In this document: piece after piece, positions 1,411 through 18,761 of the stretch | Layout of the letters: every line of letters starts with the position of its first letter | How positions within the stretch are numbered: the stretch's first letter is position 1 | Assembly (NCBI RefSeq): GCF_009363795.1 | Contig: NZ_CP045420.1 | Span: 787,001 to 851,000, forward strand | Reading direction: 5' to 3' | Length of the DNA stretch: 64,000 nucleotides | Source: Palleronia sp. THAF1 | GTDB lineage: Bacteria; Pseudomonadota; Alphaproteobacteria; Rhodobacterales; Rhodobacteraceae | Position numbers and translations under genes: made by a program | Notes under the pieces: generated by a model | The model's input: the letters and a program-made list of their open reading frames with translations, nothing else | What the model was told of the DNA's origin: nothing | Databases searched by the model: none

Positions 1411-2292
1411 TCAGCCAATGGCCTTCAAGACGGCTTCGCCCAGACCAGCGGGGCTGTCAGCGACCACGATGCCGGCTTCCTGCATCGCGGCGATCTTGCT
1501 GTCGGCGTCGCCTTTGCCACCGGCGACGATGGCGCCAGCGTGGCCCATGCGGCGGCCCGGAGGGGCGGTGCGACCGGCAATGAAGCCTGCGGTCGGCTTC
1601 CAGCGGCCCTTTTTCTTCTCGTCGGCGAGGAACTGAGCGGCTTCTTCTTCGGCCGATCCGCCGATTTCGCCGATCATGATGATGCTGTGCGTTTCATCGT
1701 CGGCCAGGAACCATTCCAGGACGTCGATATGCTCGGTGCCCTTGATCGGATCACCGCCGATACCGACGCATGTGGATTGGCCAAGGCCCACGTCGGTGGT
1801 CTGCTTGACGGCCTCATACGTCAGGGTGCCCGAACGAGACACAACGCCGACCGATCCACGCTTGTGGATGTGGCCGGGCATGATGCCGATCTTGCAGGCG
1901 TCGGGCGTGATGACACCGGGGCAGTTCGGCCCGATGAGAACGGTCTTCGATCCATTCAGTGCGCGCTTGACCTTCATCATGTCCAGCACCGGGATGCCTT
2001 CGGTGATGCAGCAGACCAGCGGGATCTCTGCGTCAATGGCTTCAAGGATCGAGTCGGCGGCGAAGGGGGGCGGCACGTAGATCACGGACGCATTCGCGCC
2101 GGTCTTGGCGACGGCTTCGTGGCAGCTGTCAAACACCGGCAGATCAAGGTGCTGTTGCCCGCCTTTGCCCGGCGTCACGCCACCCACCATCTTGGTGCCG
2201 TAGGCAATCGCCTGTTCGGAGTGGAACGTGCCTTGGCTTCCGGTAAAGCCCTGGCAGATCACCTTGGTGTTTTCGTCAACGAGAATGGCCAT
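1411..2292 (-). CDS. sucD: succinyl-CoA synthetase alpha subunit (ADP-forming)
   Basis: The 293-residue alpha subunit binds CoA and carries the phosphohistidine of succinyl-CoA ligase, which converts succinyl-CoA to succinate with substrate-level phosphorylation. Visible motifs are the CoA-binding loop [14 protein letters not shown] near residues 15-28, GPNCPGVI around 121-128, and RMGHAGAI with the catalytic histidine at about residue 251. A GGAG ribosome-binding site precedes the ATG. Length is normal for the family. It is separated from sucC by a small membrane-protein gene, which is not the usual direct sucC-sucD junction. Confidence 0.98.
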
Positions 2293-2323: not shown

Positions 2324-2617
2324 TCAGAAAAGCTGTTCGCTTTCGTCCGCGGCCATGTCGAGAAGGCGGACGAGCACTAGGCCCGCGCCCATCATCAAAA
2401 GGGTGCGCCCGACCGAACCGGTCAGGTTCGACGGCAGCACCTTGGCGATGCCGTCGCGGGTGATGCGCGCCGCCCGTCGTGCTCCGCTGTCACGGTGCGC
2501 GACGTCGGGCTTGTCGGGCAGCGACAGCGCGTCGGGTTCGACCCGGCGCAGCAGCAGACCCGCACCGATCAGCGCGGCACCGATCAACATCGGAGAGGTC
2601 TCGGGTGCGATGCGCAT
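2324..2617 (-). CDS. small hypothetical membrane protein between sucC and sucD
   Basis: A 97-residue protein whose ATG overlaps the sucC stop codon (TGATG), so translation is probably coupled. Two short hydrophobic stretches are visible: [14 protein letters not shown] near residues 10-23 and [17 protein letters not shown] near 73-89. Between them lies a basic, charged region. The topology could be two membrane passes with a cytoplasmic loop. I do not recognise a family. Placement inside sucCD suggests a role tied to this enzyme or to membrane-associated TCA enzymes, but that is inference. Confidence 0.65.
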
Positions 2618-3810
2618 CAGCCTTTGACCGCTTTCACGATCTTCTCGGCTGCGTCGCCCAGATCGTCGGCGGCAATCACGTCAAGGCCGGAGTTCTCGAT
2701 GATCTCCTTGCCCTTTCCGACGTTCGTGCCTTCCAGTCGGACAACCAACGGCACCTGCAGGCCGACTTCCTTCACGGCGGCAACGATGCCTTCCGCGATC
2801 ACGTCGCAGCGCATGATGCCACCGAAGATGTTGACCAGGATACCTTTGACGTTCTGATCGCTCGTGATGATCTTGAACGCTTCGGTCACCTTTTCTTTCG
2901 TGGCGCCACCACCGACGTCCAAGAAGTTCGCAGGCTCGGAGCCCTTGAGCTTGATGATGTCCATCGTCGCCATGGCAAGGCCCGCGCCGTTAACCATGCA
3001 GCCGATTTCGCCGTCGAGCGCGATGTAGTTCAGGTCATACTTGCTGGCCTGAAGCTCTTTGGGGTCTTCTTCCGTTTCATCGCGCAGGGACGCGATGTCT
3101 TCATGGCGATACATGGCGTTGCCGTCGAAGCCGACCTTGGCGTCCAGCACCTTCAGGTTGCCTTCGGGCGTAACGATCAGCGGATTGATTTCCAGCTGTT
3201 CCATGTCCTTCTCGACGAAGGCTTGGTAGAAGATGCCCATCAGCTTGACGCACTGCTTGACCTGCTGGCCTTCAAGACCCAGCGCGAAGGCGACGCGGCG
3301 GCCATGGTAGGCCTGATAGCCGGTGGCAGGATCAACGTCGAAGGACATGATCTTGTCGGGCGTGTTCGCCGCGACCTCTTCGATGTCCATGCCGCCTTCG
3401 GTCGAGCAAACGAAGCTAATGCGGCTGGTCTGGCGGTCTACCAGAAGGGCCAGGTACAGCTCACGCGCGATGTCCGAACCGTCTTCGATGTAAATGCGGT
3501 TGACCTGCTTGCCCGAGGGGCCAGTCTGGTGCGTGACCAGCGTGCGGCCCAGCATCTTCTTGGCCTCGTCAGCGGCCTCTGCCACCGATTTGGCCAGACG
3601 AACCCCGCCCTTTTCGCCGGCGTCGGCTTCTTTGAAGCTGCCCTTGCCGCGACCGCCTGCGTGGATCTGAGCCTTCACGACCCACAGGGGGCCGTCCAAC
3701 TCTCCGGCGGCTGCCTTGGCGTTTTCCGCCTTGGTGACGATACGACCGTCGCTGACCGGCGCACCGTAATCGCGCAGCAAAGCCTTGGCCTGGTATTCGT
3801 GGATATTCAT
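2617..3810 (-). CDS. sucC: succinyl-CoA synthetase beta subunit
   Basis: The 397-residue ATP-grasp beta subunit pairs with SucD. It begins [16 protein letters not shown], typical of SucC. The nucleotide-binding region with AGGRGKG is near residue 53, and the C-terminal glycine-rich GGGATKEKV and [15 protein letters not shown] motifs are intact. A GGAG ribosome-binding site lies just upstream of the ATG. It is the first suc gene downstream of the paired GTGATCAC palindromes at 3914-3948, which probably control its transcription. Length and motifs are normal. Confidence 0.98.
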
Positions 3811-3913
3811 CTGGGACTCCGACTGGCTCCGTTCACGACTGACGTGCCAGTTAGCTGCACCATCGGCAATGAAAAGGACGTTAAGATCGGCGGATGGGCG
3901 CTAACAAACGCAT

Positions 3914-3948
3914 TTTGTGATCACACGCTGCGCGGCAGTGATCACAAA
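3914..3948 (-). promoter_or_regulatory. paired GTGATCAC operator upstream of sucC
   Basis: Two copies of the palindrome GTGATCAC lie at 3917-3924 and 3938-3945, 21 bp centre to centre. With their flanks they form a larger inverted repeat with 11-base arms (TTTGTGATCAC and GTGATCACAAA). The distal copy overlaps the TGA stop codon of the upstream gene, and the proximal copy ends 107 bases before the sucC ATG. The same pair with the same spacing precedes sdhC. This points to one regulator that binds two sites on the same DNA face. Its identity is not known from the sequence. Confidence 0.7.
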
Positions 3949-4859
3949 GGGGTGCCGTCCTTCAGGTGGATACGGATCTTTCGGCGCAGCTGCCGCAATT
4001 TCCAGTTGTCCACTTTCTCGCGATGGGCATCCAAAGCCTTCATGGCCAATGCGCCGTGCCCGCGTCGTGTCGCATCTTCGAGCATCGTCACGACCCATGG
4101 GATAGAGGCATGGCGCGCGCGCATCAGTTGGCTGAAACGCGCGGTGTCCAGCGATCCGTTCAAACCGGCTAGCGCCACTGGCTTCAGTACGTCCATCCGG
4201 TGCAGGGCGGGGGGCACCTTGTGGGTCAGGTAGGCTTGCGGCAGCAGACGCACGTTCGGCCCGGTCAGACGCGCGGCATGGGCGGCGTCCTCTGGAACGG
4301 TCGGGTCGTAGACGACCTGCACAACACTGGCCTCGGCGATCCCCTCCGCCGCATCTCGGTATGGGCCGGACCAGTCGGTGAAGCGACGCACGAAGCTGTA
4401 GCGGCCTTCGAAAGGGACCAGGTCATCGGCCAGAGAGGTCTGCGGCGCGAAGGCGAAGACCGTTGCCCCCGGGATCAACCGCGCGAAGGTCAGTGCGCCG
4501 AAGCCGCCCATGGACGCGCCATATAGACTGGTGGCGGGATATTGGGCGAACAGCCCATCGTTCGCGACCCGCTCCATTTCGGTGAAGAGGCTTGCGTCGC
4601 GGTACCAGTCCTTGCGCTTGGCCAGAACACCCAGAGCGCCCCATCCCTGCGCCCGGATCAGGGGCTCGCCGAAGATGCGGCGGGGGATCACGTCGACCGT
4701 GGCGAGGTTGTCGAACCCGATGACCAGTCGCTCCCTGCCGGGTAGATAGGCGAGCACATGATGCTCGGTCTCGCGCCAGAAGCCACCGCTGGCGTCGACG
4801 TCTTCGCGCAGCCGCTCGAACCCGGTGTCGTAGATGGGCACGTTCAGTCCGTCGGGCAT
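3942..4859 (-). CDS. alpha/beta-hydrolase-fold-like protein of unknown function
   Basis: A 305-residue cytoplasmic protein without a signal peptide. The strongest motif is YGASMGGFGALTFAR near residue 117. It resembles the G-x-S-x-G nucleophile elbow of alpha/beta hydrolases and suggests Ser as nucleophile. A possible catalytic His or Asp is not obvious. Its upstream neighbour on the same strand is a glycosyltransferase, so a surface-polysaccharide or glycan role is possible. Its stop codon lies inside the distal GTGATCAC operator of sucC. I would not assign a substrate. Confidence 0.7.
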   Translation of the reverse strand: MPDGLNVPIYDTGFERLREDVDASGGFWRETEHHVLAYLPGRERLVIGFDNLATVDVIPRRIFGEPLIRAQGWGALGVLAKRKDWYRDASLFTEMERVANDGLFAQYPATSLYGASMGGFGALTFARLIPGATVFAFAPQTSLADDLVPFEGRYSFVRRFTDWSGPYRDAAEGIAEASVVQVVYDPTVPEDAAHAARLTGPNVRLLPQAYLTHKVPPALHRMDVLKPVALAGLNGSLDTARFSQLMRARHASIPWVVTMLEDATRRGHGALAMKALDAHREKVDNWKLRQLRRKIRIHLKDGTPL

Positions 4860-4964
4860 CTGCGCTTTCCTTGCAAGTGCCCGGTTTCTAGCGCACCCGG
4901 CGCGTATCCGTCCATGCGTTTGCGCGCAACGGTTCAGGCGTCGCGCAAACTGACGACTGGAACG

Positions 4965-5795
4965 TCAACGGTGGAAGAACCGTCCACGGATCAGTGATGT
5001 CCTTGCGTGCAGAAACCCAAGAAGCCCGCGCTCGAACAGCGGCCTGACCCCGCGCGGGGTGCCGCCGAGCGTGCGGTCGGCGGCGATCAGGCGAGTCAGC
5101 TGGGCAGCGCCAGCGGGTCCCAGCAAATCGCGCGCGCTGGCCACCGGAGCCTTGTTCTTTCGAAAGCTGGCATGAAGGCGCGGCGAATGCAGGATGCGCG
5201 GAGCGGTGGTGTGGTCGGACATGACGTTCAGCGAGCGCAGTCCCATGAGGTTGTATTCTTCTGGGAGTGTGGCAATGCGCAGGTCGGAGTCGAACAGCAA
5301 CCGGCGGAGCATTGGCTGGTCGCGATTGAAATCGTCGGCGCGCAAAATCGCTACGACGTGATTCCAAAACGCGACCGTTGGATCCGAGCGTAGCGTGACG
5401 ATAACGCCGCTGTTGTATTGCGGGAAAGCGGCGGGCAGAGGCGCACGCCACGTTTCGGTCGCGTGCTCGGTATTGCGATAAGGATCGTGCGCCATGGCGA
5501 CGTCGAACCGATCCAGAACATCAAATGCATCCGTGGGATCAGCAACGACCAGCGTGTCTGCATCCAGATAAAGCGTACGTTCGAACCGGCTGTCGCGCAG
5601 GGCCGCGAACTTCGGACGGAAGAAGTCGTCGGGCAGGGTTTGGACGCGGTCGAAGGCGTCTTCGCTAGCGTTCGGCGTGTCGGTAAAGATATCGATGAGA
5701 AGATCGGGGCAAACCGCGCGAAGGGACCGGGCGGACTGTGCCGCAAGGGCTGTATAGTCCGGCCCGGTCGTCGCGTAGATGGCGCCCCGATCCAA
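4965..5795 (-). CDS. glycosyltransferase, GT8-like
   Basis: A 276-residue protein begins with IYATTGPDYTALAAQSARSLRAV, as in family 8 sugar-nucleotide transferases. The metal/nucleotide-binding DxD is seen in RTLYLDADTLVV near residue 98, followed by PQYNSGVIV and FNRDQPML, which fit the acceptor and sugar sites of GT8-like enzymes. The start is a TTG five bases after the mdh stop codon, so it is probably translated by coupling to mdh. It lies between mdh and the hydrolase-like gene on the minus strand. The sugar donor and acceptor are unknown. Confidence 0.7.
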   Translation of the reverse strand: MDRGAIYATTGPDYTALAAQSARSLRAVCPDLLIDIFTDTPNASEDAFDRVQTLPDDFFRPKFAALRDSRFERTLYLDADTLVVADPTDAFDVLDRFDVAMAHDPYRNTEHATETWRAPLPAAFPQYNSGVIVTLRSDPTVAFWNHVVAILRADDFNRDQPMLRRLLFDSDLRIATLPEEYNLMGLRSLNVMSDHTTAPRILHSPRLHASFRKNKAPVASARDLLGPAGAAQLTRLIAADRTLGGTPRGVRPLFERGLLGFLHARTSLIRGRFFHR

Positions 5796-5800
5796 AGGGA

Positions 5801-7727
<1,927 letters not shown>

Positions 7728-7854
7728 AACTCACTCCTAGACATTTTTGCGCGTCTCTCGCGCTCTGCCTGCACAATCGCCAGCCCGCTCAGTTGTTCCT
7801 GTCTCCTGCGCGAAATTTCGGCAAATAATGATCGGAACCTTTCGGAGAGCCGCC

Positions 7855-8610
7855 TTGGACCCCTTTTCCGTCCAGATCTACGCCGCAGCCATTCCTGCGG
7901 TTCTTGTCGCGGGTATATCGAAGGGAGGTTTCGGGTCGGGGGCCGCTTTCGCAGGTGCGGTGATCCTGGCGCTGGCCGTAGAGCCGCCGGTGGCCCTGGC
8001 CGTCATGTTGCCGCTGTTGATGGTCATGGATGTGACGGCGCTGCCCGCCTATTGGCGCAGATGGGATCCGGTGGCGGCAGTGGCGCTGTGCGCGGGGGCG
8101 GTGCCGGGTGTCATCGTGGCCGGGCTGGTGTTCCGCAGCGCCGATCCTGACACGCTGCGCATCCTGATCGGCGCGGTGGCGCTGGGGTTCGTGGCGTTTC
8201 AACTGGCGCGGCAGTCTGGGGTGCTGGACGTGTCCGGGCTGCCAGCGGGACGCGCGGCGGGCTGGTTCTGGGGTTGCGTGGCGGGGTTCACCAGCTTCGT
8301 CAGCCACGCAGGCGGGCCGCCCGCCGCCGTCTATCTGCTGTCGCGCGGCCTGACGAAAGAGACCTATCAGGCGACGACGGTCGTGGTCTTCTGGATCATC
8401 AACATGATGAAGATCGGCCCCTACGCATGGCTCGGGGCCTTTTCAGCCCAGACACTGTGGTTGGACCTGACGCTGATCCCGGTCGCTGTGGCCGGGATCG
8501 GCCTGGGTGTCTGGTTGCACCGGCGCGTGGCGTCGGAGTGGTATTTCCGTGTGACCTACGCGCTTTTGGTCGTGACGGGCACGAAACTGATCTGGGATGG
8601 GCTGGCCTAG
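7855..8610 (+). CDS. TauE/SafE family permease
   Basis: A membrane protein of about 251 residues with roughly seven or eight hydrophobic segments and the family signature VAGISKGGFGSGAAFAG near the N-terminus, then SFVSHAGGPPAAVYLL in the middle. These permeases export sulfite or sulfonate-related anions, or other small organic anions. The TTG at 7855 is preferred because GGAGAG lies five bases before it. In-frame upstream codons would add a hydrophilic stretch without family similarity. It is transcribed divergently from the PRC-barrel gene and its stop overlaps the end of the next, convergent gene by four bases. Substrate is unknown. Confidence 0.85.
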   Translation: MDPFSVQIYAAAIPAVLVAGISKGGFGSGAAFAGAVILALAVEPPVALAVMLPLLMVMDVTALPAYWRRWDPVAAVALCAGAVPGVIVAGLVFRSADPDTLRILIGAVALGFVAFQLARQSGVLDVSGLPAGRAAGWFWGCVAGFTSFVSHAGGPPAAVYLLSRGLTKETYQATTVVVFWIINMMKIGPYAWLGAFSAQTLWLDLTLIPVAVAGIGLGVWLHRRVASEWYFRVTYALLVVTGTKLIWDGLA

Positions 8611-8921
8611 GCCGGATCGCCCGTCAGGGCCGGCTCATCCACCGTCTCAAAATGCTCACCAGAGGCGACAAGGCAGCTGATGCCGTCGGGCCGGGTCATC
8701 ACGACGGTCCAGCTTCCGCCTTCCGATGCGAAGGTTTCCACCACGAACCCATTGCCTGCCAAGCCGATGCTGCGCCGGCTTTCACCGTATTTCTTCGCAA
8801 GGTGGGCCAGCACCACGTCGCGCGGGGCGCAGCGTGCGCCTTCGGCTTTCACGGGCAGGGTCGCAAGGGCGAGGGCGATGGAAAAGACGAGCAGCGCGAG
8901 TGTTACCATATTGCGGATCAT
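8607..8921 (-). CDS. small exported hypothetical protein
   Basis: A protein of about 104 residues with an N-terminal hydrophobic signal (MIRNMVTLALLVFSIALALATLPVKA) and a mature part with two cysteines (GARCAPRDVV and GISCLVAS). The two may form a disulfide in the periplasm. It could also begin at 8954, with 11 more residues. It resembles short periplasmic proteins seen in Rhodobacterales, but I recognise no characterised family. It overlaps the end of the convergent TauE-type gene by four bases. Confidence 0.7.
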   Translation of the reverse strand: MIRNMVTLALLVFSIALALATLPVKAEGARCAPRDVVLAHLAKKYGESRRSIGLAGNGFVVETFASEGGSWTVVMTRPDGISCLVASGEHFETVDEPALTGDPA

Positions 8922-9104
8922 CGGCGTGGCCTCCTGGGGCATGGATCGGATCATGCTCCAAGATCGGCTAAGATAGCGTTAATCACGTAAAGCCGCCGCG
9001 CGGTGGGCCGCCGTCTGCCGCAACGCGGCGAAAACGGGCTTGCGGGATCGTGCCGGGACGTGGCACTCCACGACACATTATTACCCACTCATGCGGAGGC
9101 GCGC

Positions 9105-9938
9105 ATGCGACCCTGGCGATCGGTTCTCTATATTCCCGGCTCTAAGGAGCGTGCGCTCGACAAGGCGCGCGGACTCGACGTCGATGCGATCATCTTCGAT
9201 CTGGAGGATGCGGTCGCCGTGGCCGAGAAGGACGCCGCGCGCGAAACCCTGTCGGCGGCGCTGCGCGGTGGGGGCTACGGCAGTCGCGCGCGCATCGTGC
9301 GGATCAACGGCTTCGATACGCCGTGGGGCGCCGACGATCTGGATGCGGTGGCAGAGCTGGAGCCTGACGCGATCTTGCTGCCCAAGGTGAACAGCGCGGA
9401 CGACATTCGCGCGCTGGACGGCAAGCTTCGGGGCGATACGCGCATCTGGGCGATGATGGAAACGACGCACGGCGTCTTCAATGCCGCCGAGATCGCCTTG
9501 GCTCCGAAGATGCAGGGCTTCGTTCTGGGCACCAACGATCTGGCCGCCGAGATCGGCTGCGAAACGGGCGGTGATCGATTGCCCCTGATGATGGCGATGC
9601 AGACCTGTCTGGCCGCCGCGCGCATGGGCGGAATCGCCTGTGTCGACGGCGTGTTCAACGCTTTCAAGGATGAAGGCGGTTTGCGTGCCGAATGCGAGCA
9701 GGGCCGCAGCTTGGGCATGGACGGCAAGACGCTGATCCACCCGGCGCAGGTCGCGATCTGCAACGAAGTCTTCACACCTTCGCCGGACAAGGTCGAGTTG
9801 GCGCGCCGCCAGATCGCAGCGTTCGAGGAGGCAGAGGCCAAGGGGCAGGGGGTTGCCGTTGTGGATGGCAAGATCGTCGAGAACCTGCACGTGGCAACAG
9901 CGCGCAAGACATTGGCGAAAGCGGGGGTGAACGCATGA
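9105..9938 (+). CDS. mcl2: HpcH/HpaI-CitE family enzyme, probable (3S)-malyl-CoA thioesterase
   Basis: A 277-residue member of the CitE-like branch of the HpcH/HpaI family. MRPWRSVLYIPGSKERALDKA, DAIIFDLEDAV and the acidic metal-binding residues in AMMETTHGVFNA and FVLGTNDLAAEIG are typical. In Rhodobacter sphaeroides the paralogue Mcl2 hydrolyses (3S)-malyl-CoA to malate beside the lyase Mcl1. The short length and the operon with mesaconyl-CoA hydratase favour Mcl2. A GGAGG at 9095-9099 sets the ATG at 9105. Its stop overlaps the next start (ATGA). A malyl-CoA lyase is the alternative. Confidence 0.8.
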   Translation: MRPWRSVLYIPGSKERALDKARGLDVDAIIFDLEDAVAVAEKDAARETLSAALRGGGYGSRARIVRINGFDTPWGADDLDAVAELEPDAILLPKVNSADDIRALDGKLRGDTRIWAMMETTHGVFNAAEIALAPKMQGFVLGTNDLAAEIGCETGGDRLPLMMAMQTCLAAARMGGIACVDGVFNAFKDEGGLRAECEQGRSLGMDGKTLIHPAQVAICNEVFTPSPDKVELARRQIAAFEEAEAKGQGVAVVDGKIVENLHVATARKTLAKAGVNA

Positions 9939-10489
9939 TCGTTCTAATCCTCGGCGTCGCCCTTTGGGTCGGCGCGCATCTGTTCAAACGCCTGGCCCCC
10001 GATGCGCGGGCGCGTCTGGGCAAACCGGGCAAGGGCGCGCTGGCCTTGGCGATCGTCGTTTCAATCGTTCTGATGGTCATCGGCTACCGCATGGCCGACG
10101 GCGCGGTGTTCTGGGGCCGCAGCCCCGCGATGGTGGGCATCAACAACCTGCTGATGGTCGTGGCCTTCTACATCTACGCGTCGGGCATGGCGAAGTCGCG
10201 GCGCAACTGGGTGGGGCATAAACTGCGCCACCCGCAGTTGATCGGCTTCAGCCTGTGGGCGTTCGCGCATCTGCTGGTGAACGGCGATGTGCCGTCTTTC
10301 ATCCTGTTCGGCGGCCTACTGATCTGGGCGCTGGCGGAAATGACGCTGATCAATCGCGCGCAGCCCGACTGGACGCCGGTGCCTTACGGCGGGAAGAAGA
10401 AAGAGATCTCGGTCGCGGTTATTACGGTGGTGATCGTCGTGATCGTGATGCTGATCCACAATTGGCTGGGCGTGCAGCCCTGGGGGTGA
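9935..10489 (+). CDS. NnrU family membrane protein
   Basis: A 184-residue integral membrane protein with five or so hydrophobic helices. It matches the NnrU/MAPEG-like pattern: RSPAMVGINNLLMVVAFYIYASG, KLRHPQLIGFSLWAFAHLLVNGD and LIWALAEMTLINR. NnrU was first met next to denitrification genes. Many homologues stand elsewhere and are of unknown function. Here it overlaps mcl2 by four bases (ATGA) and sits within the mcl2-mch operon, so it may be expressed with acetate assimilation. Its link to that pathway is unexplained. Confidence 0.8.
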   Translation: MIVLILGVALWVGAHLFKRLAPDARARLGKPGKGALALAIVVSIVLMVIGYRMADGAVFWGRSPAMVGINNLLMVVAFYIYASGMAKSRRNWVGHKLRHPQLIGFSLWAFAHLLVNGDVPSFILFGGLLIWALAEMTLINRAQPDWTPVPYGGKKKEISVAVITVVIVVIVMLIHNWLGVQPWG

Positions 10490-10493
10490 TGGG

Positions 10494-10694
10494 ATGATCT
10501 ACAGATTATTGACCGGCGATGATACGTCGGCCTTTTGCCATAAGGTGTCCGACGCTCTGGCGAAGGGGTGGGAGCTTTATGGCGATCCGTCCTACGCCTA
10601 CGATGCGCAGGCGGGCGTCATGCGCTGCGCGCAGGCCGTGGTGAAGCATGACCACGCGCCCTATGCGCCGGACATGAAGCTGGGCGCGCAATGA
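10494..10694 (+). CDS. DUF1737 family small protein
   Basis: A 66-residue protein starting MIYRLLTGDDTSAFCHKVSDAL, followed by KGWELYGDPSYAYD, which matches the short DUF1737 family. These proteins are cytoplasmic and have no known function. The gene begins four bases after the NnrU-like gene. Its own stop overlaps the mch start (ATGA), so it is translationally linked to mesaconyl-CoA hydratase. Confidence 0.85.
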   Translation: MIYRLLTGDDTSAFCHKVSDALAKGWELYGDPSYAYDAQAGVMRCAQAVVKHDHAPYAPDMKLGAQ

Positions 10695-11719
10695 GCAAGA
10701 CGAACGCAGGCTACTTCTTCGAGGATTACCGCGTCGGCCAAGTGATCCGCCATGCCGTCCCCCGCACCGTGGCAGAGGGCGAGCGCGCGCTGTACCACAT
10801 GCTCTACCCAGCGCGTCACGCGCTCTATTCGTCGGACGTGTTCGCCGCCGATTGCGGTTTGGAGTCCAGTCCGCTGGACGATCTGATCGCCTTTCACATC
10901 GTTTTCGGCAAAACGGTGCCGGACGTGTCGCTGAACGCCGTGGCCAACCTTGGCTACGCCGAGGGCCGATGGCTGGCCCCGGTTTGGCCGGGTGATACGT
11001 TGCGGTCCGAGTCGGAAGTGATCGGGTTGAAGCAGAACTCCAACGGTAAGTCCGGTGTCGTTTACGTGCGTACGACGGGCCTGAACCAGAATGACGAGCC
11101 GGTGCTTAGCTACGTGCGTTGGGTCATGGTGCGCAAACGCGATCTAGATGCGCCCGCGCCCGAAATGGTTGTGCCGGAGCTTGCAAAGACCGTTGCCGCA
11201 GGCGATCTGACCGTGCCGGGCGGCCTGGATTTCACCGACTACGACTTCGATCTGGCCGGAGAGCCGCACCGTTTGGGTGACTACAGGGTGGGTGAAGTCA
11301 TCGACCACGTGGACGGCGTCACCATCGAGGAAGCCGAGCACATGATGGCCACGCGGTTGTGGCAGAACACTGCGAAAGTGCATTTCGACGCGACCCACCG
11401 AGAGGATGGCAAGCGCTTGATCTACGGTGGGCACGTGATTTCTATGGCCCGGGCACTGTCATTCAACGGCTTGGCCAATGCACAGATGATCGTGGCGCTG
11501 AACGGTGGCGCGCATGCCAATCCGTGCTTCGCGGGCGACACGGTGCGCGCGTGGTCCGAAGTTCTGGATATCGCTGAAACCGATGCCCCCGGCGTCGGCG
11601 CGATCCGGCTGCGGCTGGTTGCGACCAAGGGCGCGGGCGAAGGGCTACGGGGCGAGGACGGCAAATATCTGCCACATGTGCTGCTCGACCTAGATTACTG
11701 GGCGTTGATGCCGGTGTGA
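10691..11719 (+). CDS. mch: mesaconyl-CoA hydratase (beta-methylmalyl-CoA dehydratase)
   Basis: A 342-residue protein made of two hot-dog (MaoC-like) halves. It converts mesaconyl-CoA to beta-methylmalyl-CoA in the ethylmalonyl-CoA pathway. N-terminal features are GYFFEDYRVGQVIRHAVPRTV and YPARHALYSSDVFA. The second half shows RLGDYRVGEVIDHVDGVTIEEAEH and GGHVISMARALSFNGL. Length agrees with characterised Mch (about 343). It is the last gene of the mcl2 operon, and its TGA lies within the distal GTGATCAC palindrome upstream of sdhC. Confidence 0.93.
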   Translation: MSKTNAGYFFEDYRVGQVIRHAVPRTVAEGERALYHMLYPARHALYSSDVFAADCGLESSPLDDLIAFHIVFGKTVPDVSLNAVANLGYAEGRWLAPVWPGDTLRSESEVIGLKQNSNGKSGVVYVRTTGLNQNDEPVLSYVRWVMVRKRDLDAPAPEMVVPELAKTVAAGDLTVPGGLDFTDYDFDLAGEPHRLGDYRVGEVIDHVDGVTIEEAEHMMATRLWQNTAKVHFDATHREDGKRLIYGGHVISMARALSFNGLANAQMIVALNGGAHANPCFAGDTVRAWSEVLDIAETDAPGVGAIRLRLVATKGAGEGLRGEDGKYLPHVLLDLDYWALMPV

Positions 11720-11744
11720 TCACTGCGCGGTCAACTGTGATCAC
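11716..11744 (+). promoter_or_regulatory. paired GTGATCAC operator upstream of sdhC
   Basis: GTGATCAC occurs at 11716-11723 and 11737-11744, again 21 bp centre to centre, as upstream of sucC. The distal copy overlaps the mch stop codon, and the proximal copy ends 135 bases before the sdhC ATG. Flanks TGTGATCACT and TGTGATCACA share the outer T. It is the likely operator of the sdh operon and part of a common TCA-cycle regulon with sucC. Confidence 0.7.
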
Positions 11745-11878
11745 AATTGCCATGTTAGCGCCTGCTGCGACACCGCGCGCGGCGTGTTGCCCGTGACACG
11801 CGCTCAAAAACCTTTAACTAGATTTCAACAGAACCCCGCCACAGACGGGGCCAGCCGACAGAAAGAGGGATCGCCGCC

Positions 11879-12262
11879 ATGGCAGACGTGAACCGGGGCA
11901 ACCGCCCACTTAGCCCGCACATCGGTATCTACCGTCCGCAATTGAACTCGATCACGTCGATCATGACGCGGATCACGGGCAATGCGCTGATCGTAGGCTC
12001 GCTGCTGATCACGTGGTGGCTGGTCGCCGCCGCCGCAGGTCCGGACGCTTTCGCGACCGCCGACGCGGTGTTGACCAGCTGGTTTGGCGATCTGATCATG
12101 TTCGGCTCGCTCTGGGCGCTGTGGTACCACCTGCTGGCCGGTCTGCGGCATCTTTACTGGGACACGGGACGCGGCTTCAATCTGGACCAAGTAGCCATTC
12201 TGGGCTGGGGCGTCATCGGCGGCTCTGTCGTGCTGACCATCCTGACCGTGCTGATCGTCTGA
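11879..12262 (+). CDS. sdhC: succinate dehydrogenase cytochrome b556 subunit
   Basis: A 127-residue membrane anchor of complex II with three transmembrane helices. The family start RPLSPHIGIYRPQLNSITSIMTRITG is present, and HLLAGLRHLYWDTG near residue 90 carries the haem-ligand histidine region. A GAGGGA site lies seven or so bases before the ATG. It opens the order sdhC-sdhD-sdhA-(three small genes)-sdhB. Confidence 0.95.
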   Translation: MADVNRGNRPLSPHIGIYRPQLNSITSIMTRITGNALIVGSLLITWWLVAAAAGPDAFATADAVLTSWFGDLIMFGSLWALWYHLLAGLRHLYWDTGRGFNLDQVAILGWGVIGGSVVLTILTVLIV

Positions 12263-12274
12263 AGGAGCGCATAG

Positions 12275-12646
12275 ATGTCTTATACTACCGCAAGAAAGCG
12301 CGCCGTCGGACTGGGATCGGCGAAATCCGGGACCGAGCATTACTGGAAGACGATCCAGTCCTCTGTCGGTCTGTTGATCCTTGTTCCGCTGTTCATCTTT
12401 ACCTTCGGCTCGATCCTTGGATCGTCGTATGAAGAGGTCATCGCCTACTATTCGCGCCCGTTCCCCGCCATCGTCGCCGCTTTGACGATCGCCGTGGGCT
12501 GGCTTCACTTCAAGAACGGCGCGCAGGTGCTGCTGGAAGACTACTTCCGCGGCATGACCTACAAGGTATCGCTGATCGTCGTTAACTGCATTTCCTACGC
12601 CGCCTTGGTCGCCGGGCTCTACGCCCTCGTCCGGCTGGCGCTGTAA
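12275..12646 (+). CDS. sdhD: succinate dehydrogenase hydrophobic anchor subunit
   Basis: A 123-residue anchor with three hydrophobic helices (about residues 34-52, 66-80 and 98-122). The motif [16 protein letters not shown] at the end of the second helix is typical of alphaproteobacterial SdhD; it takes part in haem and quinone binding with SdhC. It lies 12 bases after sdhC and 13 bases before sdhA. Confidence 0.95.
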
Positions 12647-12659
12647 GGGGGACACCAAG

Positions 12660-14462
12660 ATGGCTGCCTACGAATACAAGACACATAACTACGACGCGAT
12701 CGTCATCGGTGCGGGCGGGTCCGGCCTGCGGGCGACGCTGGGACTGGCCGAGCAAGGTCTGCGTACCGCTTGCGTGACCAAGGTGTTCCCGACCCGCTCG
12801 CACACTGTTGCGGCGCAGGGTGGCATTGCAGCCAGCCTTGGCAACATGGGCCCGGACCACTGGCAATGGCACATGTACGACACCATCAAGGGGTCGGACT
12901 GGCTGGGCGACATGGACGCGATGGAATACCTCGCGCAGGAAGCCCCCAAGGCCGTGTATGAGCTGGAGCACTATGGCGTGCCGTTCAGCCGCACCGAAGA
13001 GGGCAAGATCTACCAGCGCCCCTTTGGCGGCCACACGACGGAATTCGGCGAAGGCCCCCCGGTGCAGCGCACCTGCGCCGCCGCCGACCGCACGGGCCAC
13101 GCGATCCTGCACACGCTGTACGGTCAGTCGCTGAAGCAAAAGGCCGAGTTCTTCATCGAATACTTCGCCATCGACCTTCTGATGAGCGACGACGGCGTCT
13201 GTCAGGGCGTGCTGGCCTGGTGCCTCGAAGACGGCTCCATGCATGTGTTCAACGCCAAGCAGACGGTGCTGGCGACAGGCGGCTACGGTCGCGCCTACTT
13301 CAGTGCCACCAGCGCCCACACCTGCACCGGCGACGGCGGCGGCATGGTCGCGCGCGCCGGTCTGCCCTTGCAGGACATGGAGTTCGTGCAGTTCCACCCG
13401 ACCGGCATCTACGGCGCGGGCTGCCTGATCACCGAAGGCGCGCGGGGCGAGGGCGGTTACCTTACGAACTCTGAAGGCGAGCGGTTCATGGAGCGCTACG
13501 CGCCCACCTACAAGGACTTGGCCTCGCGTGATGTGGTCAGCCGCTGCATGACGATGGAAATCCGCGAAGGTCGCGGTGTCGGCAAGGACAGCGATCACAT
13601 CCACCTGCACCTGAACCACCTGCCGCCCGAAGCGCTGGCAGAACGGCTGCCGGGGATTTCCGAGTCCGCCAAGATCTTCGCCGGCGTCGACGTCACGAAA
13701 GAGCCGATCCCGGTGCTGCCGACGGTCCATTATAACATGGGCGGCATTCCGACGAACTACTGGGGCGAGGTCCTGTCTCCCACCGAATCCGACCCAGACC
13801 GCGTTGTGCCCGGCCTGATGGCCGTGGGAGAGGCTGGCTGCGCTTCGGTCCATGGCGCCAATCGCCTTGGCTCCAACTCGCTGATCGACCTTGTGGTTTT
13901 CGGTCGCGCTGCTGCCATCAAGGCAGGCGAAGTCGTGGACCGTGGCGCATCGCCCGCGCCGGTGAACACCGCGCAGGTCGAAAAGGCACTGGATCGCTTC
14001 GACGGCCTGCGTCACGCCAAGGGCGAAACCCCGACCGCTGAGCTGCGTGCTCAAATGCAAAAGGCGATGCAGGACGACGCTGCCGTCTTCCGCACAGACG
14101 AGACGCTCGCGCAGGGTGTCGAGAAGATGTACGATGTCGCCGGCAAGATGGACGATATCCAAGTCACGGATCGTTCGCTGATCTGGAACACCGACCTGAT
14201 GGAGACGCTGGAGCTGACGAACCTGATGCCCAACGCTCTGGCCACCATCGTGTCTGCCGAAGCGCGCAAGGAAAGCCGTGGGGCCCATGCCCACGAGGAC
14301 TATCCCGACCGCGACGACGAGAACTGGCGCGTTCACACCCTGGCGCGGGTTAACGGCAAGGTCGAGCTCGACTATCGCCCCGTCCACGTGAACCCGCTGT
14401 TGGGCCACAACGAAGGCGGTATCGACCTGGACAAGATCAAGCCGAAGGCGCGCGTGTATTAA
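12660..14462 (+). CDS. sdhA: succinate dehydrogenase flavoprotein subunit
   Basis: The 600-residue FAD subunit oxidises succinate to fumarate. The dinucleotide-binding motif [16 protein letters not shown] spans residues 16-30. [10 protein letters not shown], whose histidine (about residue 48) binds FAD covalently, follows. The capping and active-site motifs [16 protein letters not shown] and the C-terminal Glu/Arg region ([14 protein letters not shown]) are all intact. Length is normal. It feeds electrons to SdhB and links the cycle to the quinone pool. It also uses succinate derived from the succinyl-CoA output of the ethylmalonyl-CoA pathway. Confidence 0.98.
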
Positions 14463-14507
14463 CTGGCGGTCGCACGATCTGCGGCGCTAAGGGAAAGGAA
14501 CGATCCG

Positions 14508-14882
14508 ATGGTCCGACTGTCCACGATCTGTACGATTGCCACGCTGGCTGTGGCGCCGCTTGCGGCATCCGCTGGTGGCTATTCCGGCGCTCCGACCTGC
14601 GACGAACTTGCCGCTGCGGGTCAACTGCATGCAGGCGTGAGGTGCACGCGTGGCACCGGGGTCTATCAGGTCGAGGCGGCGCAGCCCGGCACGGTCGTGG
14701 ACGGTGTGATGGTTCAGCGACAGGGCTTTTTCTACACCCTGTTGCGCCACGTCCCGGCGACAGAGGTCGTGCGCGGCCGTCGCTGCCCTTATCCCCATCG
14801 CGCCTCTGACTCGGTGTTCTCTGGTGGTGCCGGTTACGTGATCAAGGATACCGTGAGGGCGCGCATCGGATGCGTCTATTGA
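14508..14882 (+). CDS. exported small protein within the sdh operon
   Basis: A 124-residue protein with a signal peptide (about residues 1-22, ending ASA) and a mature domain with four cysteines (PTCDELAAAG, VRCTRG, RRCPYP, IGCVY) that suggest two disulfides in the periplasm. I recognise no family. It lies 45 bases after sdhA with a purine-rich site (GGAAAGGAACG) and overlaps the next gene. Small exported genes between sdhA and sdhB are, as I recall, seen in other Rhodobacterales, so the arrangement may be conserved. The function is unknown. Confidence 0.7.
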   Translation: MVRLSTICTIATLAVAPLAASAGGYSGAPTCDELAAAGQLHAGVRCTRGTGVYQVEAAQPGTVVDGVMVQRQGFFYTLLRHVPATEVVRGRRCPYPHRASDSVFSGGAGYVIKDTVRARIGCVY

Positions 14883-15151
14883 TGTTTGCAGTCTCGATGG
14901 CCGCGGCTTCGGTCGCGGGGTGCGCCCGGCAATCCATGTCGCCTGAGCGGGCTGCGCTGATCTGTGCGGATCGTGCGAACCTTGCGGACCGTCCGCGCGG
15001 TCGCGTGGGGATCGGTGCGGGAAGCGGTGGCATATCCACGAATGTGGGTCTGACCGTCACGTCCGATTTCCTGCTGCGCCGTGATCCGCAGGACGTGTAT
15101 GACGCGTGCTTCATCGAAAAGACTGGCTTTCCGCCGATGGCTGCACGATGA
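14870..15151 (+). CDS. small lipoprotein within the sdh operon
   Basis: A 93-residue protein with a short hydrophobic signal and a lipobox SVAGC near residue 18, so it is a likely lipoprotein. The mature part holds a glycine-rich stretch (VGIGAGSGGIS) and ends with cysteine-containing DVYDACFIEKTG. It overlaps the preceding gene by 13 bases and the next by four (ATGA). I recognise no family. Confidence 0.65.
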   Translation: MRLLMFAVSMAAASVAGCARQSMSPERAALICADRANLADRPRGRVGIGAGSGGISTNVGLTVTSDFLLRRDPQDVYDACFIEKTGFPPMAAR

Positions 15152-15459
15152 AGGCGTTGGCGATCCTTCCGGTCTTGGCCCTGTCAGCCTGCGTGGTGCC
15201 CACGACGCAAGACATTACGCGCAACGCGGCGAAGTCCACGGTGAACCGCGTCGTCGTCAGCCGTTTTCCCGGTCTGCCGGTCGAGCCGTCGATTAACTGC
15301 ATCGTCGACAATGCGACGCAGGGAGAGATTCTGGGCCTTGCGTCCGACTCGGTCACTGGCCCGACAGAGGCCACGATCCAGACCGTTTTTTCCATCATCC
15401 GACGCCCGGCTACGGTGCAATGCCTTGCCACCAGAGGCGTCCCCGCCCTTTTGAACTAG
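15148..15459 (+). CDS. small lipoprotein within the sdh operon
   Basis: A protein of about 103 residues. The ATG at 15148 gives MKALAILPVLALSACVVPTTQ, a clear lipoprotein signal with lipobox LSAC. The mature part has two further cysteines (SINCIVDNAT and ATVQCLATRG). The start overlaps the previous stop (ATGA), and sdhB begins 18 bases after its stop, so it is translated as part of the sdh transcript. Function is unknown. Confidence 0.65.
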   Translation: MKALAILPVLALSACVVPTTQDITRNAAKSTVNRVVVSRFPGLPVEPSINCIVDNATQGEILGLASDSVTGPTEATIQTVFSIIRRPATVQCLATRGVPALLN

Positions 15460-15477
15460 TCCGAACCGGAGAGACCC

Positions 15478-16257
15478 ATGGTCGAACTCACGCTTCCCAA
15501 GAACTCGAAGATGCGCACTGGCAAGACCTGGCCTAAGCCCGACGGTGCGACGAATCTCAAGCAATTCGATATTTACCGCTGGAACCCAGACGACGGTGAG
15601 AACCCGCGCGTCGACACGTATTTCGTCGATCTCGATGGATGCGGCCCGATGATGTTGGACGCCCTGATCAAGATCAAGAACGAGATCGATCCCACGCTGT
15701 CGTTCCGACGCTCTTGCCGCGAGGGCATTTGCGGGTCCTGTGCGATGAACATCGACGGCGTGAATACGCTGGCCTGTATCTACGGCATCGACGAGGTGTC
15801 GGGCGTGGTGAAGGTCTATCCGCTGCCGCACATGCCGGTGGTGAAGGACCTGATTCCCGACCTGTCGCATTTCTACGCCCAGCACGAATCGGTCATGCCG
15901 TGGTTGGAGACGAAATCGAATGTTCCCTCGGACGAGTGGAAGCAATCGGTGGACGATCGCAAAAAGCTCGACGGTCTGTATGAATGCGTGATGTGCGCGT
16001 GCTGTTCGACGTCTTGCCCCAGCTATTGGTGGAACGGCGACAAGTATCTTGGACCGGCGGCTTTGCTGCACGCCTATCGCTGGATCGTGGACAGCCGTGA
16101 CGAGGCAACCGGAGAGCGGTTGGATGATCTGGAAGATCCGTTCAAGCTGTATCGCTGTCACACGATCATGAATTGCGCGCGGACCTGCCCGAAGGGCCTC
16201 AATCCCGCGAAGGCGATCATGGAAATCAAGAAGCTGATGATCGAACGCGCCGTCTAA
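15478..16257 (+). CDS. sdhB: succinate dehydrogenase iron-sulfur subunit
   Basis: A 259-residue electron-transfer subunit of complex II. The [2Fe-2S] cysteines are in [10 protein letters not shown] (about residues 79-88) and near residue 100. [16 protein letters not shown] and [11 protein letters not shown] hold the [4Fe-4S] and [3Fe-4S] ligands. A CCGGAGAG site lies just before the ATG. It ends the sdh operon and is followed by a strong terminator. Confidence 0.98.
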
Positions 16258-16755: not shown

Positions 16756-18723
16756 TTATTGAGCCGCTACGGATTGAGGATCGGCAAGCGTAACGATATC
16801 CGCCATGATCCGGTTCATCTCGAAATCCTTTGGCGTATAGATACGTGCCACTCCTTTGCGGCGCAGCAATTCGGCATCTTCTTCCGGGATAATGCCACCG
16901 ACCAGAACCGGAATGTCCATGCCCTCGGCCCGCAATCGGTCCATCAAATCGCTGACCAGTGGGATATGGCTGCCGGACAGGATTGACAGGCCCAGCACAT
17001 GGGGCTGTTCCGCGCGGGCGCGTTCGACGATCTCTGCGGGGGTCAGGCGAATGCCTTCATAGCTGATCGCCATGCCGCAATCGCGGGCACGGGCGGCGAT
17101 CTGTTCGGCGCCGTTGGAATGGCCGTCCAGACCGGGTTTGCCGACCATGAAGGACAGCCGCCGCCCCAGCTTGGAAGAGACCGCGTCAACCTTCTCACGC
17201 AAGTCATCCAAATCCTGAGTCCGGTTCGACATGGCGGACGCCACGCCAGTCGGTCCTCGAAATTGTCCGAAAGCTTGGCGCAACACGTCGCCCCATTCGC
17301 CCGTTGTGACGCCTGCCTTCGCAGCCTCGATCGATGGCGGCATTATGTTGGTGCCGTCCTTCGCGGCCCGGCGCAGGGATGCCAGCGCCGCCTCCACGCG
17401 GGCGTCGTCACGCTTGGTTTTCCATTTCGACAGGCGCGCCAGCTGATCCGCCTCTGCCTTGGGATCGGCGACCATGATCGCTTCTGGTCCACTGGTCAGG
17501 GGCGAAGGCTCTCCGCTTTCGTAGCGGTTCACGCCGATCACCGTAGTGGTGCCGCCTTCGATTCCACTGATCCGGTCGGCGTTGGCTTCGACCAGCCGGG
17601 ATTTCATGTACTCGATGGCATTCACCGCACCGCCCATGGCGTCGATCTGCGCCAATTCAGCCAGCGCACCTTCTTTCAAATCGGCCACCTTTCGTTCGAT
17701 GGCGGGGTTGCCGTCGAAGAGGTCGTCATATTCCAGAAGGTCCGTCTCGAACGCGAGGATCTGTTGCATCCGCAGAGACCATTGCTGATCCCAGGGGCGG
17801 GGCAGTCCCAAAGCTTCATTCCAAGCGGGCAATTGCACGGCACGGGCGCGCGCGTTCTTCGATAGGGTGACGGCCAGCATCTCTATCAGGATGCGGTAGA
17901 CGTTATTCTCTGGTTGCTGCTCGGTCAGGCCAAGGCTGTTCACCTGCACGCCATACCGGAAGCGACGGTAGCGCGCGTCTTCGACTCCGTAGCGGTCGCG
18001 GCAGATATCGTCCCACAGGTCGACGAAGGCGCGCATCTTGCACAGTTCTGTCACGAAGCGGATGCCCGCGTTCACGAAGAAGCTGATGCGGCCGACCATT
18101 TCGGGGAAATCTTCTGGTGCCACCTTGTCCTTCAAGTCATCGAGCACGGCGGTGGCGGTGGCCAAGGCGTAGGCCAGTTCCTGCTGCGGCGTCGCGCCGG
18201 CTTCTTGCAGGTGGTAGGAACACACGTTCATCGGGTTCCATTTGGGCAGATGCTGCCGGGTGTAGGCAGCCACGTCTGTGATCATGCGCAGGCTTGGCGC
18301 GGGCGGGCAGATGTAGGTGCCGCGCGACAGGTATTCCTTGATAATGTCGTTCTGCACGGTGCCCTGCAGCGCCGAGATATCCGCGCCCTGTTCCTCTGCT
18401 ACCGCGATGTAGAGCGACAGCAGCCACGGCGCCGTGGCGTTGATCGTCATCGAGGTGTTCATCTGGTCCAGCGGAATGTCTACGAAAAGCGCGCGCATGT
18501 CGCCCAGATGCGCGACCGGCACGCCGACCTTGCCGACCTCGCCCTTCGCCAATTCGTGGTCACTGTCGTAGCCGGTCTGAGTGGGCAGATCGAAGGCGAC
18601 GGACAGGCCGGTCTGCCCCTTGGCCAGATTGCCGCGATATAGCGCATTGGACGCTGCGGCGGTGGAGTGGCCGGCGTAGGTGCGAAAGAGCCAGGGCTTG
18701 TCTCTTTGGGGCGTGTCGGTCAT
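16756..18723 (-). CDS. ecm: (2R)-ethylmalonyl-CoA mutase
   Basis: A 655-residue adenosylcobalamin-dependent mutase that converts (2R)-ethylmalonyl-CoA to methylsuccinyl-CoA. N-terminal motifs are KPWLFRTYAGHSTAAASNALYR-like and TGLSVAFDLPTQTGYDSDH. The cobalamin-binding domain near the C-terminus shows KPGLDGHSNGAEQIA, the DxHxxG motif, and later GGIIPEEDAELL. Ecm is shorter than methylmalonyl-CoA mutase (over 700), which together with ccr nearby supports this assignment. The start at 18723 is chosen over an in-frame codon at 18738 because MTDTPQRDKPW is the usual N-terminus. Confidence 0.93.
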   Translation of the reverse strand: MTDTPQRDKPWLFRTYAGHSTAAASNALYRGNLAKGQTGLSVAFDLPTQTGYDSDHELAKGEVGKVGVPVAHLGDMRALFVDIPLDQMNTSMTINATAPWLLSLYIAVAEEQGADISALQGTVQNDIIKEYLSRGTYICPPAPSLRMITDVAAYTRQHLPKWNPMNVCSYHLQEAGATPQQELAYALATATAVLDDLKDKVAPEDFPEMVGRISFFVNAGIRFVTELCKMRAFVDLWDDICRDRYGVEDARYRRFRYGVQVNSLGLTEQQPENNVYRILIEMLAVTLSKNARARAVQLPAWNEALGLPRPWDQQWSLRMQQILAFETDLLEYDDLFDGNPAIERKVADLKEGALAELAQIDAMGGAVNAIEYMKSRLVEANADRISGIEGGTTTVIGVNRYESGEPSPLTSGPEAIMVADPKAEADQLARLSKWKTKRDDARVEAALASLRRAAKDGTNIMPPSIEAAKAGVTTGEWGDVLRQAFGQFRGPTGVASAMSNRTQDLDDLREKVDAVSSKLGRRLSFMVGKPGLDGHSNGAEQIAARARDCGMAISYEGIRLTPAEIVERARAEQPHVLGLSILSGSHIPLVSDLMDRLRAEGMDIPVLVGGIIPEEDAELLRRKGVARIYTPKDFEMNRIMADIVTLADPQSVAAQ

Positions 18724-18761
18724 TGCGGGACTTTCCAAAACTTCGCTTTACGCTGGTCTAT

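Follow-up and report, generated by a model that had tools for sequence, protein, structure and literature searches.

The DNA analysed here is a stretch of 64,000 nucleotides from Palleronia sp. THAF1 (contig NZ_CP045420.1, positions 787,001 to 851,000), referred to below as the window. It carries sucC and sdhC, each preceded by two copies of the palindrome GTGATCAC. With a probability of about 0.87, these two pairs are operators of the GntR-type regulator AkgR, from which the suc and sdh operons would be activated together from upstream. A search of the whole window gave the four exact copies listed below, and no fifth exact copy was found in it. In both pairs the copies were separated by a 13-bp spacer, giving 21 bp from centre to centre. 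The initial annotation had described these pairs as the only copies in the window and had placed the distal copy of each over the stop codon of the upstream gene; both descriptions agreed with the sequence. The features are as follows.

1411..2292 (-): sucD, on the same strand as sucC (NCBIfam)
2617..3810 (-): sucC, first gene of the presumed suc operon (NCBIfam)
3914..3948 (-): predicted AkgR-type double operator before sucC, TTT-GTGATCAC-N13-GTGATCAC-AAA, after the family consensus
3917..3924: palindrome copy nearest sucC; pair edge to start codon 106 bp
3938..3945: palindrome copy farther from sucC; holds TCA at 3942-3944, the complement of the TGA stop of the open reading frame (ORF) 3942-4859 (-)
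9003..9938: mcl2-like gene
10691..11719 (+): ORF of a mesaconyl-CoA hydratase-like (mch) gene
11713..11747 (+): predicted AkgR-type double operator before sdhC
11716..11723: palindrome copy farther from sdhC; holds TGA at 11717-11719, the stop of the mch-like ORF
11737..11744: palindrome copy nearest sdhC; pair edge to start codon 134 bp
11793..11820 (+): candidate sdhC core promoter from the family alignment, with -35 box GTGACA (11793-11798), a 16-bp gap and the putative -10 box TAACTA (11815-11820)
11879..12262 (+): sdhC, first gene of the sdh operon (NCBIfam)
12275..16257 (+): sdhD, sdhA and sdhB, with small ORFs between sdhA and sdhB (NCBIfam, ORF list)
16756..18738 (-): presumably meaA
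20352..21632 (+): presumably ccr

The suc operon was presumed to run on outside the window with sucA, sucB and lpd on the same strand; these three names are our own assignments, and homologous gene order was matched for sucA only.

Palindrome copies in the window and the genome

Dinucleotide shuffles of the window contained on average 1.21 copies of GTGATCAC, and at least four copies were reached in 4 of 100 shuffles. The copy number was therefore weak, only mildly unusual evidence, and the signal lay in the pairing. The view that the sites are unlikely to have arisen by chance thus held for the pairs but hardly for the number of copies. The genome (3.34 Mb) contained 49 copies in total; just two pairs had a 13-bp spacer, both of them in the window, and the reversed-pattern control gave none.

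When the 45 copies outside the window were read in context, 36 were clearly coding and nine were of other kinds, as roughly classified by codon composition. A palindrome preceded by T and followed by A was found in none of the remaining nine copies and in 3 of the 36 coding ones. Because of these two results, only four good sites are left in this genome; the wider regulon was looked for among the 45 other exact copies. It had been proposed beforehand that frequent single copies inside genes would speak against the pairs. Such copies were indeed frequent (36/45), but they were unpaired and thus harmless to the reading.

A link to acetate assimilation, suggested in the initial annotation, was not supported: all four copies in the window belong to the two pairs, and none lies before the mcl2-like gene or the genes taken for meaA and ccr. 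The overlap of the distal copies with the upstream stop codons was also considered as a functional feature and rejected. In relatives, mch ended between ∼12 bp and over 1 kb away from the pair, and the motif itself contains TGA, so that the overlap was regarded as incidental.

Conservation of the pairs and promoter geometry

Pairs, defined as two copies of GTGATCAC with a spacer of 0-30 bp, were searched for in 295 genomes of the family, representing 294 genera. They were found in 267 of the 295, and the reversed pattern in one. A sample of the class comprised 385 genomes, five of them from the family itself, and all five carried pairs. Among the 380 others, some pair was found in 24, with scattered spacings, and in only two of the 24 was the spacer 12-13 bp; the reversed control occurred in 2 of the 385 genomes, one of these with 42 occurrences. 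In 30 family genomes picked for having at least three pairs, restriction to spacers of 12-13 bp left exactly two pairs in 24 genomes and three in six, so the extra pairs at other spacings mostly look like noise.

The loci around 155 listed pairs were read, a partial set of which well over one third came from the genomes picked for at least three pairs. Spacers of 12-13 bp were found in 152, and 147 of these loci preceded sucC (75) or sdhC (72). Conservation before suc and sdh in relatives, which the initial annotation had named as its own test, was thus strong. The 13-bp spacer dominated before both genes (66 against nine 12-bp spacers for sucC, 66 against six for sdhC), and the median distance from the sucC pair to the start codon was 110 bp. 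One further locus with a 12-13 bp spacer preceded sucA. In genome G042, a pair with a 13-bp spacer (L291:601-629) preceded a class II fumarase-like gene, of which a fragment was seen, and the AkgR regulon seems to reach this next step of the tricarboxylic acid (TCA) cycle there. The pairs of the last three of the 152 loci were located upstream of a queuosine-precursor transporter gene (L203), within a Mur-ligase gene (L246), and in the gap separating an unnamed ORF from a polyamine-binding-protein-like gene (L342). Neither sucC nor sdhC adjoined the three loci whose spacers had other lengths.

The 132 pairs with 13-bp spacers had preferred flanks. TTT was found before the pair at 64-87% per base and AAA after it at 77-91%, and the central spacer bases were 68% A/T compared with 47% downstream. 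The two spacers of the window are G+C-rich, unlike these A/T-leaning family spacers. In three genera (G135, G191 and G285; L245, L256 and L267:17609-17658), a third copy was found in register before sucC, 21 bp further out.

By our count, 44 genomes of the family sample had exactly one pair, and 30 of them were examined. At the set threshold sucC was found in 27, with an exact pair in 26 and the remaining locus cut off. The sdhC gene was found in 29: its pair was exact in one, had one or two mismatches in 15 and at least three mismatches in 13, and several of these 13 were no better than chance. In G066, the one further member of the window's genus that was sampled, the sdhC pair had two mismatches.

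Downstream of the pair, the sequence [GC]TGAC started 57-61 bp away in 57 of the 72 sdhC promoters (shuffles: mean 0.73, maximum 4), and it looks like a -35 box. It was followed by -10-like hexamers in a scan that permitted gaps of 16-18 bp only. In the window it started 48 bp after the pair, which made this one of eight exceptional sdhC promoters, with distances of 48 bp (twice, including the window), 68, 69, 71, 78, 79, and 40 or 76 bp. These positions were compared post hoc with helical steps (nine positions from eight promoters), giving p values of 0.002 for a period of 10.0 bp, 0.010 for 10.5 bp and 0.06 for 11.0 bp. The fit to steps of ∼10 bp, and hence helical phasing, is suggestive only. 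No [GC]TGAC was present in the searched range of 7 of the 72 promoters. Unlike for sdhC, no single outstanding -35/-10 box was found in the 75 sucC promoters. Among the 75 there were 27 occurrences of TT[TAG]A[AC] in the interval 44-48 bp downstream of the pair, a weak signal obtained without a control, and the window's own sucC promoter showed no convincing box at this distance.

Several other short sequences were observed in these promoters. Of the 75 sucC promoters, 49 had GGGAC, often inside ACGGGACAG, in the last 25 bp ahead of the start codon, compared with 8 of the 72 sdhC promoters; it could be either a ribosome-binding variant or a regulatory site. Among the 72 sdhC promoters of relatives, 13 contained GCGCCAAAA, usually 23-24 bp downstream of the pair, and eight contained TTGCGCCAA, 21-22 bp downstream of it (shuffle mean at most 0.1 for each). 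In the window, each pair is followed by TGTTAGCGCC, after 10 bp at 3897-3906 (-) and after 8 bp at 11753-11762 (+). GTTAGCG or CGCTAAC was counted in 6 of 75 sucC and 7 of 72 sdhC promoters, with 0.9 and 1.2 in shuffles. A second regulator, for example CceR, possibly has a half-site in TGTTAGCGCC.

The AkgR gene and its occurrence with the pairs

A gene for a GntR/FCD protein (P0001) was found 7 kb before the window, at G000:C1:779163-779831, beside the suc operon and convergent with the lpd-like gene at that operon's far end. Its product has an N-terminal GntR helix-turn-helix domain (Pfam GntR, 46.1 bits, cut-off 27) and a C-terminal FCD domain (69.4 bits, cut-off 24.3), as in the FCD subfamily of the GntR family. 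The nearest solved structure by sequence was E. coli McbR (PDB 4p9f, E = 2.2e-17). The pattern GT-N4-AC of GTGATCAC is that of GntR-type sites.

RSP_0981 of Rhodobacter sphaeroides is taken here to be AkgR. In the part of PMC6365646 available, which cites Imam et al. 2015 for AkgR of R. sphaeroides, GTGATCAC is given among the AkgR sites and AkgR is called a transcriptional activator; in the available part of PMC4344238, the GntR factor RSP_0981 is predicted to regulate suc and sdh. The window sites have this same palindrome and lie before these same operons. R. sphaeroides was not among the loci, and the gene neighbourhood was judged via its near relative Cereibacter johrii, whose PufL is identical to the R. 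sphaeroides sequence used for comparison and whose gene order fits the RSP numbering. There, the order is akgR-sdhB-A-D-C-[pair]-mch-mcl2-mdh-[pair]-sucC-D-A, and AkgR is 74% identical to the protein of the window's genome. The orthologue thus has the expected neighbours, but the suc-sdh block of the window's genome (G000:C1, about 779-803 kb) is inverted relative to akgR when compared with C. johrii (L266). In all 12 named relatives, chosen from 80 named loci, one orthologue-level AkgR match (68-78% identical) and at least one pair were present.

The occurrence of akgR and the pairs was compared across the 295 family genomes, which were treated as independent in Fisher tests. With an orthologue cut of E 1e-60, both were present in 260 genomes and neither in 23, with AkgR only in five and the pair only in seven (p = 1.7e-23); with an alternative cut of E 1e-20, the corresponding numbers were 264, 15, 13 and 3 (p = 4.5e-15). 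Pairs and akgR were thus mostly present or absent together, as expected of an AkgR regulon, leaving the seven pair-only genomes unexplained. Among the AkgR-only genomes, G040 and G291 had a pair with one mismatch in the right place, and the assemblies of G147, G155 and G166 contained no true sucC, the best match being 52% identical where there was one. Of the 23 genomes with neither, 20 had a true sucC; before it, 18 of these 20 showed at least five mismatches in 16 positions, G157 had four, and G017 had three in a different-looking sequence. The four-mismatch site of G157 is perhaps a relic. A SucC tree had 63 rows, 20 of them AkgR-less; this label needed 10 changes, three of them forced by well-supported branches, compared with 17.3 for shuffled labels; the tree is poorly resolved, and the changes may be gains or losses. 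Operators and regulator appear to have been repeatedly gained or lost together, and the arrangement is a family-wide trait.

The promoter of akgR itself was inspected in 42 orthologue loci, consisting of the 30 best matches and the loci of the 12 named relatives. A single GTGATCAC was found just before akgR in 30 of the 42 (e.g. L047, L063, L070), and in 27 of these 30 TTGAC started exactly 18 bp upstream of it, so that the palindrome covers the expected -10 region of akgR. This would be a repressor position, and autorepression is probable. In the rows looked at, an ATG followed close behind, within ∼15 bp, which suggests a leaderless akgR mRNA. In G187, two copies 13 bp apart were present before akgR.

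From all these results, the regulator of the pairs is almost certainly AkgR. This fits the initial annotation, which had proposed one GntR-type regulator for sucC and sdhC and had offered AkgR as one of two names; LysR and MarR proteins had also been considered as site owners, and the reason for them was lost once AkgR was found, neither being tested separately. By type, the pairs belong to a regulon already known, here in one further species, with an architecture perhaps undescribed. No description of the 21-bp pairing was found in a literature search, the reach of which did not include the likely place, Imam et al. 2015 (mBio e02461-14). Possibly new are the rigid spacing of 20-21 bp within the pair, with in-register triples in some cases, the fixed and perhaps helically phased distance from the pair to the sdhC -35 box, and the single GTGATCAC over the akgR core promoter.

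Predicted mode of action and alternatives

Each GTGATCAC would be a twofold-symmetric site for one AkgR dimer. Two dimers 21 bp apart, i.e. two turns, would lie on the same DNA face and probably bind together. In the window, their distances upstream of the estimated sdhC start would be roughly 87 and 108 bp, and in relatives using the common box ∼98 and 119 bp; from there, AkgR may contact RNA polymerase. By analogy with the published activator, the suc and sdh operons of the window organism would be switched on jointly, covering the segment of the TCA cycle from 2-oxoglutarate to fumarate. A likely regulator and exact predicted operators are thereby identified for this central segment in the window's genome. 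Activation is less common than repression in the GntR/FCD family, and the rigid pair at a fixed distance from the -35 box offers a simple testable model of such a protein as an activator.

Several observations weigh against this assignment. The seven pair-only genomes have no clear AkgR orthologue: G096 and G264 (both 77% complete) and G256 (93%) gave no match at all at E 1e-20, and G019 (91%), G033 (74%), G114 (100%) and G273 (73%) gave weak matches only. One-pair genomes often have a degenerate sdhC pair or have lost it, the promoters examined in AkgR-less genomes were those of sucC only, and neither the window's genome nor its congener G066 nor C. johrii carries the self-site before akgR.

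It was considered whether a different GntR/FCD regulator binds the pairs while AkgR merely co-occurs. The genome holds six other FCD-domain loci (eight domain matches in all), and a paralogue 35-41% identical to AkgR is present in 9 of the 12 named relatives. Nevertheless, each of these 12 genomes has only one orthologue-level match, the akgR promoter bears the same palindrome in most loci, and GTGATCAC is tied to AkgR in the available text of PMC6365646, which makes another family member improbable. A target of the CRP/FNR type (TGTGA...TCACA half-sites) is less probable still. Both CRP-like half-sites are contained in TGTGATCACA. Half-sites of CRP/FNR proteins are 4-6 bp apart, as in TGTGA-N6-TCACA for CRP, but by inspection they abut here, and such a target would leave the two-copy 21-bp layout and the joint presence with a GntR gene unexplained. 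Chance, or a conserved structural repeat without a protein, can practically be dismissed. The number of single copies in the genome (49, compared with ∼63 expected from scaled-up window shuffles) is in line with it, but the pairs are conserved across genera, with one reversed control in 295 genomes, and are present or absent together with akgR.

The pairs might also be sites from which AkgR represses sucC and sdhC. Repressors are common among GntR regulators, and the single site before akgR is in a repressing position. On the other hand, the pair is located ∼48-79 bp (in one case perhaps 40 bp) upstream of a recognisable sdhC -35 box, a position more typical of activators, and AkgR is called an activator in the part of PMC6365646 available; repression is thus unlikely, if somewhat less so than the other alternatives. 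Activation by AkgR at the pairs and repression at its own gene may be combined in a two-way switch, which we put forward tentatively, at rather less than even odds. Paired and sometimes triple palindromes at a fixed, perhaps phased distance would activate sucC and sdhC, and a single site over the -10 region, with its centre ∼21 bp downstream of where the -35 box begins, would shut the apparently leaderless akgR promoter. The window organism, like C. johrii, would be without this second arm.

CceR (RSP_1663), a LacI-family regulator, is also predicted for sdh in R. sphaeroides in the available part of PMC4344238, where its motif is given as [A/G/T]GTT-N6-8-AAC[A/C/T]. By inspection of GTGATCAC only, the palindrome does not fit this motif, and CceR was rejected as the owner of the sites. 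In the same partial text of PMC6365646 as above, GTGATCAC is also proposed for PS417_07240, a GntR-like regulator of deoxyribonate catabolism in Pseudomonas simiae that is 32% identical to AkgR; it differs in its target genes and in having one palindrome, at -47 to -40, instead of a pair. In another family of the class, pairs with spacers of 14 and 13 bp were observed upstream of TonB-dependent receptor genes (L268:9808-9837 in G308 and L075:992-1020 in G440). A GntR/FCD gene adjoins both, the protein of G308 being 32% identical to AkgR, and this double operator may serve AkgR-like proteins elsewhere in the control of different genes.

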